From: Gammaproteobacteria bacterium
GTDB lineage: Bacteria > Pseudomonadota > Gammaproteobacteria > DSM-16500
DNA: 64,000 nucleotides
Assembly (NCBI GenBank): GCA_021324305.1
Contig: JAJPJI010000033.1
Location: 62,001 to 126,000 of the forward strand
Direction: 5' to 3'
Of the stretch, positions 6,126 to 23,170 are shown one piece after another. Positions within the stretch are counted from its first letter, which is position 1. Each line of letters starts with the position of its first letter. The notes under the pieces were generated by a model. That model saw only the letters and a program-made list of their open reading frames with translations, searched no databases and was not told the origin of the DNA. Position numbers and translations under genes: made by a program.

Positions 6126-6428
6126 ATGAAAAAATGCGTGCTATCAGTCAGTCTTGTTACCTTCATCACACTGTTTGTTGTGTTTTATGCTGTCTATTAT
6201 CTCCTGCTCCAGGACAACTTCCTGCACTGCTCGATATCGTCCATTATCACAATGTCACACCATCTTGATCACAAAAGACATTTAATTGTGCCTGGTTTGT
6301 TGCCAATATATATCGCTTCGGTAATTTTTGGCGCAGCTACCTTGGGTATTTACATAGGATCATCCATACAGCAATATATTATTCGGTGCTCGAAAAAACC
6401 CATTATCGCTCCCAAAAAAGCATTTTGA
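6126..6428 (+). CDS. Small two-span membrane protein, hypothetical
   Basis: A 100-residue protein with two predicted membrane helices (about residues 7-29 and 55-80), a histidine-rich loop TMSHHLDHKRHLIVP between them, and a basic tail CSKKPIIAPKKAF. I recognise no family. The ATG at 6126 lacks a convincing ribosome site, so the gene call is moderate. Its support is the intact frame, regular membrane topology and an upstream PmrA-box-like element with a -10 sequence. If PmrA-controlled it could be an envelope-remodelling or secreted membrane protein; that is inference. Confidence 0.5.
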   Translation: MKKCVLSVSLVTFITLFVVFYAVYYLLLQDNFLHCSISSIITMSHHLDHKRHLIVPGLLPIYIASVIFGAATLGIYIGSSIQQYIIRCSKKPIIAPKKAF

Positions 6429-6579
6429 GATAATTGCCATTATCCATGTAAGCCTTTTACTATAGGCAACGTAGGAAAATCTCCACAAAATTGAGTCTTC
6501 ACTCATCTCAACTTATTGATTAATAAAAAAATAACCCCATTGCAATAATCATGTTCCAGCTTAACTGTTGATAAAATCA

Positions 6580-6609
6580 TTGAGCCTTGAGAAAACGATT
6601 TGCTAATCT
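6580..6609 (+). promoter_or_regulatory. Sigma70-like promoter of the RsmY/Z-like sRNA
   Basis: -35 TTGAGC (6580-6585), 18-base spacer, -10 TAATCT (6604-6609) preceded by the extended element TGC (6601-6603). The predicted transcription start is near 6616, just before the first GGA motif of the RNA. Confidence 0.5.
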
Positions 6610-6615
6610 AGAAAT

Positions 6616-6756
6616 TGTTCAGGGATGAAATCAAGGACAGGCATCACGGAATTGAAGCATCTTCACGGATGACACCGCCAAGGATTTTGGCAGATTGGGC
6701 CAGGAAGCCTGGGTAGGCAAAAAGGGGCAGCTTAAGGATTAAGCTGCCCCTTTTGG
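6616..6756 (+). ncRNA. RsmY/RsmZ (CsrB-family) CsrA-sequestering small RNA
   Basis: About 140 bases without an ORF hold seven GGA motifs (at 6623, 6635, 6648, 6667, 6682, 6703 and 6736), several in small hairpin loops: GCCAA-GGAT-TTTGGC at 6677-6690, TCA-CGGA-TGA at 6663-6672, GGC-CAGGAA-GCC at 6698-6709, and an AGGA loop inside the terminator stem at 6724-6750. Repeated AGGA/GGA in loops ending at an intrinsic terminator is the hallmark of RsmY/RsmZ RNAs, which titrate the translational repressor CsrA. In Legionella these RNAs sit below the LetAS two-component system. A LetA/GacA site was not found convincingly. Ends are estimated from the promoter and terminator. Confidence 0.75.
6719..6755. 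terminator. Bidirectional Rho-independent terminator
   Basis: GGGGCAGCTTA (6724-6734) and TAAGCTGCCCC (6740-6750) form a perfect 11-bp stem with loop AGGAT. A-run 6719-6723 and T-run 6751-6754 flank it, so it can end both the plus-strand small RNA and the minus-strand ppa transcript. The loop itself carries a GGA motif. Confidence 0.9.
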
Positions 6757-6775
6757 CTTTCTGAGTTCTCACACA

Positions 6776-7315
6776 TTACGCAACTGTTTTCTCTTGGTAT
6801 CGTTTAACGCTGGCTAATATTTCACTTCTGGCCGATTCTACATTTTCCCAGCCATCCACTTTAACCCATTTGCCTTTTTCGAGGTCTTTATAATGGGTGA
6901 AGAAATGTTCAATCGCATCGAGAAGTTCCTTGCCCAGGTCTGTCGGCTTGGAGACATGCTGATATCTGGTCGTCAACTTGTCTACCGGCACAGCCAGGAT
7001 TTTTGCATCTTTACCAGATTCATCTGTCATGCGCAGCATGCCAATGGGTCGGCAGCGGATAACCGCACCAGGGACAAGTGAAAAAGGTGAAACAACCAGC
7101 ACATCCACTGGATCACCATCTTCAGACAAGGTATGAGGAACAAAACCATACTCGCAAGGATAAAACATGGCGGTCCCGAGAAATCGATCCACCATTACCA
7201 TACCGCTTTCCTTATCAACTTCATATTTGATAGGGCTACTGTGTGACGGTATTTCAATAACAACATTAATATCATCTGGAACCTGTTTGCCGGCCTGGAG
7301 ATTCTCTAAACCCAT
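6776..7315 (-). CDS. ppa: Inorganic pyrophosphatase, family I
   Basis: 179-residue soluble pyrophosphatase that hydrolyses PPi and drives biosynthesis. Catalytic metal-binding aspartates are in [27 protein letters not shown] and [13 protein letters not shown] are conserved family blocks, and the C-terminal part has [20 protein letters not shown]. Length matches E. coli Ppa (176). The ATG at 7315 has AGAGGATG upstream. Transcript end is the bidirectional terminator at 6719-6755, shared with the convergent small RNA. Confidence 0.96.
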
Positions 7316-22909: not shown

Positions 22910-22955
22910 GCACTTGTAAATTCTACGCTTACTCTGTAGATTTCACATCGCGAAG

Positions 22956-23138
22956 TAACAGGTGTACGGGAAGTTGGTGCGCGACGCATTTTTATAATGA
23001 CTCACAAGGCCAACGCTGCCCCCGCAACGGTAATCATCTTTTGAAACAGATATCGCCACTGTGCATAGCATGGGAAGGCGCTGGTATCGGTGACAAAACC
23101 AATGTCGCCAGGATGTAAGCCCGGAGACCGGCCTGCTA
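22956..23138 (+). promoter_or_regulatory. Adenosylcobalamin riboswitch
   Basis: The core elements of the cobalamin riboswitch are present in order: AGTAACAGGTG then ACGGGAAGTTGGTG at the 5' end, GCTGCCCCCGCAACGGTAA at about 23017-23035, GCCACTG near 23055, TGGGAAGGCGC at about 23081, and the B12 box GATGTAAGCCCGGAGACCGG at about 23112-23131. It ends 30-40 bases before the start of the TonB-dependent receptor gene. The known mechanism is repression of the downstream gene when adenosylcobalamin binds. Confidence 0.95.
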
Positions 23139-23170
23139 CAACTTTTTACTCACTGTAGCGGAGGGCTCAC

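Follow-up and report, generated by a model that had tools for sequence, protein, structure and literature searches.

The intergenic span between an open reading frame of 100 amino acids and the convergent inorganic pyrophosphatase gene (positions 6429-6775 of the window, by which we mean the whole 64,000-nucleotide stretch of DNA that was analysed) very probably encodes, judging from its sequence, a small RNA sequestering the global regulator CsrA and of the same working type as RsmY, RsmZ and CsrB. On the same grounds, we hold it highly probable that this is a UvrY/GacA-activated sRNA of that kind, recurring in many relatives. The selective conservation of its GGA motifs, the compensatory changes in the stems carrying GGA loops, the presence of CsrA and UvrY/GacA genes, and a set of boxes upstream all support the CsrA-titrating reading proposed in an earlier note on this DNA. 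The functional kind is already known; the RNA family is not one recognised by Rfam 15. From these features we infer that the RNA is transcribed, that UvrY/GacA binds upstream of it and that CsrA binds the RNA itself. The features of the locus are collected in Table 1.

Table 1. Features of the RNA gene and its surroundings, in window coordinates
Feature	Position	Strand	Evidence or remark
100-aa ORF without Pfam match	6126-6428	+	3' of phosphatidylserine decarboxylase gene (psd)
UvrY/GacA-type box 1 (TTTTGAGATAATTGCCAT)	6423-6440	+	de novo motif and PWM scan, 17.3 bits
UvrY/GacA-type box 2 (ATGTAAGCCTTTTACTAT)	6446-6463	+	PWM scan, 12.4 bits; 23 bp after box 1
UvrY/GacA-type box 3 (ACGTAGGAAAATCTCCAC)	6469-6486	+	PWM scan, 10.2 bits; 23 bp after box 2
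-35 element TTGAGC	6580-6585	+	TTG-type -35 and 18-nt spacer in genus
Extended -10 TGC-TAATCT	6601-6609	+	TGNTANNNT in 27/27 loci, own included
Predicted CsrA-sequestering small RNA, about 141 nt	6616-6756	+	covariance model R1, 171.8 bits
GGA 1	6623-6625	+	possible UUCA-GGGA-UGAA mini-hairpin; kept in 10/10 comparable congeners
GGA 2	6635-6637	+	without conserved stem; kept in 10/10 comparable congeners
Hairpin H1, GGA 3 in loop	6641-6658	+	two-sided changes in 3/6 pairs
GGA 3	6648-6650	+	H1 loop
GGA 4	6667-6669	+	without conserved long stem; kept in 11/11 comparable congeners
Hairpin H2 (GCCA/TGGC), GGA 5 in loop	6677-6691	+	two-sided changes in 3/3 counted pairs, 27 loci
GGA 5	6682-6684	+	H2 loop; kept in 11/11 congeners
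Hairpin H3 (GGGC CAGGAA GCCT), GGA 6 in six-base loop	6697-6710	+	comparative structure
GGA 6	6703-6705	+	six-base H3 loop; kept in 11/11 congeners
Intrinsic terminator, 15 bp, AGGAT in loop (GGA 7)	6720-6754	+	two-sided changes in 8/8 upper-stem pairs, 27 loci
GGA 7	6736-6738	+	terminator loop; kept in 11/11 congeners
Inorganic pyrophosphatase gene (ppa)	6776-7315	minus	convergent with the RNA

Seven GGA motifs can be counted directly in the sequence, as had been claimed; six of them are of the form ANGGA and four sit in hairpin loops of the comparative structure, as is characteristic of CsrA/RsmA-sequestering sRNAs. The bare number of GGAs is unremarkable (7 against a mean of 4.8 in dinucleotide shuffles, P 0.12); ANGGA is enriched (6 against 1.5, P 0.0012), and no second 146-nt stretch with 6 ANGGA was found on either strand of the window, scanned in 5-base steps. 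A column-by-column test covering six of the motifs (five in the body and the one in the terminator loop) found each of them in all comparable congeners (10/10 or 11/11), against a mean retention of 47% for 87 other trinucleotides of the body, 3 of which were fully kept; in these counts, as in those of the boxes below, congeners are non-independent sequences. GGA 3 is split by an alignment gap, and each of the 11 full-length rows has seven or eight GGAs. Across the 27 full-length loci aligned over the order (see below) the number ranges from 5 to 8, with a mean of 6.8, the GGA of the terminator loop being missing from many loci outside the genus.

Stems that carry a GGA in the loop show paired substitutions. 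The genus alignment (12 genomes, 11 of them congeners) holds 7 pairs with two-sided changes against 1.8 in shuffles, none of 500 of which reaches 7, and the alignment of 27 loci, counted over H2, H3 and the terminator, holds 14 such pairs against 7.0 (0/500) and 67 cells against 18.9, the two counted structures coming partly from an RNAalifold consensus of the same alignments, which favours those structures. Three of the genus pairs are in H1, one is in H2, none is in H3 and three are in the terminator. Two pairs of H1 fail in 4 and 5 of the 11 sequences of the genus alignment. H1 is out of register in the 27-locus alignment and for that reason plays no part in the second count, but many of the 27 RNAs allow a stem to be drawn around the third GGA. 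H3 is paired in all cells of the genus alignment with zero two-sided changes, and over the 27 loci it shows a two-sided change in one of its four pairs with 82.7% of cells paired. Compensatory change is thus clear at the sequence level for H1, H2 and the terminator and slight for H3. The terminator with AGGA in its loop, noticed earlier, is real. None of 200 shuffles folds as well as the predicted RNA (z -4.14), much of this score being expected to come from the terminator, and over the 27 RNAs the GGAs are unpaired more than other body positions (0.61 against 0.44). An energy-based fold of the single sequence of the window pairs several GGAs, and the earlier statement that the motifs lie mostly in small hairpin loops is therefore only partly true of that fold; it holds for four of the seven in the comparative structure and rests on comparison.

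The claim of a sigma70-like promoter is borne out by conservation. All 27 loci, counting that of the window, have the motif TGNTANNNT near the RNA start; relative to the model start it lies at -9 to -11 in 25 of them and is shifted in G047 and G040. The best -35 is of the TTG type with an 18-nt spacer in 12/12 genus members (again counting the window's own), and no consistent -35 was seen outside the genus. A generic consensus promoter scan did not have the TTGAGC-18-TAATCT promoter in its list. Positions 6580-6609 are the promoter and lie upstream of the RNA, the 5' end of which, judged from this promoter, is probably near 6616.

The element recurs throughout the order. A DNA search found it in 12 congeners besides the genome of the window, two of these copies being cut by contig ends; BLAST matches outside the genus, of 22-28 bases, were taken as chance. 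Covariance model R1 was built from 11 sequences, among them the window's own, which qualifies the score of 171.8 bits given in Table 1. At E 0.1 or less it has matches in 31 of the order's 36 genomes, and the full-length RNA is present in 28, that is in 27 by R1 and in G050, where it is clear only with R2. The 27 full-length R1 loci, which were aligned, comprise the 11 that built the model and 16 new finds. Their neighbourhood is largely kept, with psd in 23/27 and the 100-aa ORF, whose product by its look is probably a membrane protein, upstream of the RNA in the fetched flank of 23/27 (the window's own being included in both counts). G016 has a partial copy, and G012 the terminator only, at a contig end. 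R2 has no match in six of the 36 genomes (G003, G011, G013, G022, G042 and G043, 63-88% complete); G043 has a weak match with R1, and the R1 matches in G003 and G011 were rejected, with 1-3 GGA. Contigs end within or close to the RNA gene in G004, G012, G014 and G016, perhaps due to the strong hairpin.

One homologue per genome was recognised. In the genome of the window, the other matches are an antisense match of its own terminator and three weaker ones (E 0.3-0.75). A candidate second homologue (C8:32281-32415, 23.8 bits), with 3 GGA and no ANGGA, was rejected; that search gave scores to 150 of its 1228 candidates. R1 also has six secondary matches in other genomes (G048, G008, G009, G019 twice and G002), which were set aside as not Rsm-like, with 0-2 ANGGA each, and no second copy of the RNA was recognised among the secondary matches inspected.

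Across the class, a search of 369 genomes with R2 gave matches at E 0.001 or less in 20, three of which belong to the same family as the genome of the window. Of the 17 others, 12 genomes supplied 13 matches for inspection. Seven of these matches, from six genomes, have at least 4 ANGGA and look Rsm-like (with E no better than 6e-4 in G355 and G125), one consists of ppa coding sequence and a terminator, and five look terminator-driven or doubtful. The remaining five genomes matched over the terminator only. The seven that look Rsm-like are GGA-rich RNAs from other families within the class, at loci L084, L085, L086, L088, L101, L096 and L097, in genomes G064, G363, G104, G341 (twice), G355 and G125, and none of the seven is named by Rfam at the gathering cut-off. 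The two copies in G341 are near-identical, and a UvrY/GacA-like box (12.5 bits) precedes the RNA of G363 by 195 nt.

No Rfam model matches the region of the window's RNA at gathering; PrrB_RsmZ (RF00166) stays at 10.3 bits against a cut-off of 44 (E 4.8). The RsmY, CsrB and CsrC models, which we take to be present in Rfam, gave nothing at gathering and were not among the matches listed up to E 10, a list from which one overlapping match was dropped, its clan being represented there by a match of higher score. The earlier description as RsmY/RsmZ-like is apt as to working type, but since no Rfam model reached threshold, PrrB_RsmZ included, the RNA is not filed under the RsmY, RsmZ or CsrB families. 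Elsewhere in the window, a Cobalamin riboswitch (84.1 bits) occupies positions 22943-23150 of the + strand. Among the best-ranked matches in the open-licence literature, judged by title and abstract opening, no publication was evidently on this RNA, and the accessible portion of PMC12889724 has nothing on sponge RNAs.

The protein partners of such an RNA are encoded in the same genome, which has one CsrA match over cut-off (94 bits), presumably with its RNA-binding residues in place, and one UvrY/GacA (329.8 bits against a curated cut-off of 280). No BarA in this genome exceeds the cut-off (263 against 890 bits), and hybrid-kinase-like frames are present. Dot/Icm genes were checked in the genome of the window only, where DotI/IcmL has three matches; 14 control genomes have none. 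In the order as a whole, CsrA is over cut-off in 30 of 36 genomes and UvrY/GacA in 29. G049 (98% complete), G040, G046 and G047 have no CsrA match and carry the RNA; G018 (99% complete), G002, G017, G020, G041 and G047 have no UvrY/GacA match at 1e-60 and carry the RNA with at least one box. Such genomes count against a strict dependence. G003 and G011, both without the RNA, have a sub-cut-off CsrA match only. A partial CsrA-like match below cut-off (G000:C20:25451-25525, L002, 23 bits) lies inside an open frame of about 600 codons and occurs in 15/17 genus genomes.

Upstream of the promoter, three boxes of 18 bp follow one another, with centres near -184, -161 and -138 from the presumed RNA start, the first overlapping the stop codon of the 100-aa ORF. 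A fourth weak match at 6386 (8.1 bits) is out of the 23-bp step. A de novo motif search of the 27 upstream regions returned TTGTAAGATATTAGCCAT with a score of 323, against 212-224 in six shuffled sets. The matrix, fitted on the same sequences that it later scanned, finds 58 boxes, against a mean of 6.2 and a maximum of 12 in 50 shuffles, and has 9 raw matches on the reverse strand. The fit did not depend on the second and third boxes, since each locus contributed a single site to the de novo search. The step between neighbouring boxes is exactly 23 bp in 22 of 31 cases. In a matrix-free test (TGTAAG with one mismatch allowed), 15 pairs have this 23-bp spacing, where 30 shuffles have 0.2 on average. 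We also tried the palindromic GacA consensus TGTAAG-N6-CTTACA upstream of the 27 loci; it matches at 7-10 of 12 positions, near chance in most, and gave way to the de novo motif. The sequence-level features that UvrY/GacA control would call for, a candidate box array and a UvrY/GacA gene, are both in the genome. What is most unusual about the system is this constant 23-bp step in arrays of as many as three boxes, and no title evidently on tandem UvrY/GacA boxes was seen among the best-ranked matches of a longer list from the open-licence literature.

Three other explanations of the locus have to be weighed. It might be only a bidirectional terminator with an untranslated tail, shared by the 100-aa ORF and ppa, in which the GGAs are incidental. 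The sequence following the stem is T-rich on both strands, and for this reason the terminator may also end the ppa transcript; ppa converges on it in 10 genus loci (the window's own and the partial one of G016 included). However, the RNA has its own conserved promoter, its GGAs are conserved far above their surroundings, its body stems are compensated, and it is still there at loci such as that of G001, where no adjacent ppa was found, all of which makes this explanation very improbable.

We consider a base-pairing (Hfq-type) small RNA, acting by antisense pairing to mRNAs, just as improbable. Size and terminator would fit, the best weak match in Rfam is the Hfq-binding sRNA STnc250 (in the 3' part, 17.9 bits against 42), and members of the genus share a conserved block, GGTAGGCAAA, ahead of the terminator, but the most conserved positions of the body are GGAs spread along the RNA and not one long seed. 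A short coding gene or dual-function RNA is the least credible of the three, hardly worth entertaining. The region had been called ORF-free, which is not strictly so, as a 33-codon ORF with a TTG start overlaps the RNA on the + strand. In 6 of 10 congeners, however, its length does not divide by three, and of the other four two have it interrupted, one has it rewritten and one (G006) keeps it open.

Under the preferred reading, that of a UvrY/GacA-activated CsrA-sequestering RNA, phosphorylated UvrY/GacA (LetA-type) would bind the 18-bp boxes, as many as three, whose centres lie about 140-185 bp upstream, and would activate the extended -10 promoter. The resulting RNA of about 140 nt would display seven GGA sites, four in hairpin loops, to which CsrA dimers would bind, drawing CsrA off its mRNA targets, and CsrA control would be relieved when the two-component system fires. 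By analogy with Legionella, we infer that the physiological outcome could be a switch between growth and transmission phases. A further suggestion, tentative and rather doubtful, is that a CsrA sponge recognisable in one copy per genome runs through a Dot/Icm-bearing order, with a cooperative array of boxes at 23 bp, the one RNA providing a sharp life-cycle switch where Legionella uses several. The locus provides a sequence-and-structure handle on a probable CsrA sponge in a gammaproteobacterial order that has been little studied and where none of the loci tested was recognised by Rfam. The exact 23-bp spacing, retained in otherwise diverged DNA, opens the architecture of the upstream activating sites to direct testing.

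Among the closest known systems is that of Legionella, where, according to the available parts of two reports (PMC5338858, PMC4273665), a UvrY/GacA-type regulator promotes the CsrA-sequestering small RNAs RsmX, RsmY and RsmZ. As described there, the proposed logic is the same as in L. pneumophila under LetA/LetS, likewise in a Dot/Icm-bearing bacterium; one homologue per genome was recognised here, whereas three RNAs are named in those parts for L. pneumophila, and the likeness drawn is one of logic. As to the RsmX/RsmY/RsmZ of Pseudomonas, the RsmZ model PrrB_RsmZ falls far below its cut-off here, and the activator site, described as palindromic in the excerpted text on Pseudomonas, differs from the boxes reported here, which are asymmetric and in tandem. 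CsrB and CsrC of E. coli are longer RNAs with more GGA sites, and up to three boxes with a strict 23-bp step set the present locus apart from theirs. The upstream sites themselves are alike: in the excerpts of PMC4682653, the UvrY site of csrB is an 18-nt repeat centred at -183/-182 (thus also about 180 bp upstream) with a partial copy 5 bp downstream, and that of csrC is the asymmetric TGTGAGACATTGCCGATA, asymmetric as the boxes are here. By our own arithmetic, an 18-nt site and a 5-bp gap make a step of 23 bp, which the partial second site of csrB fits, and the 23-bp spacing found here would suggest that this partial site is functional in E. coli.
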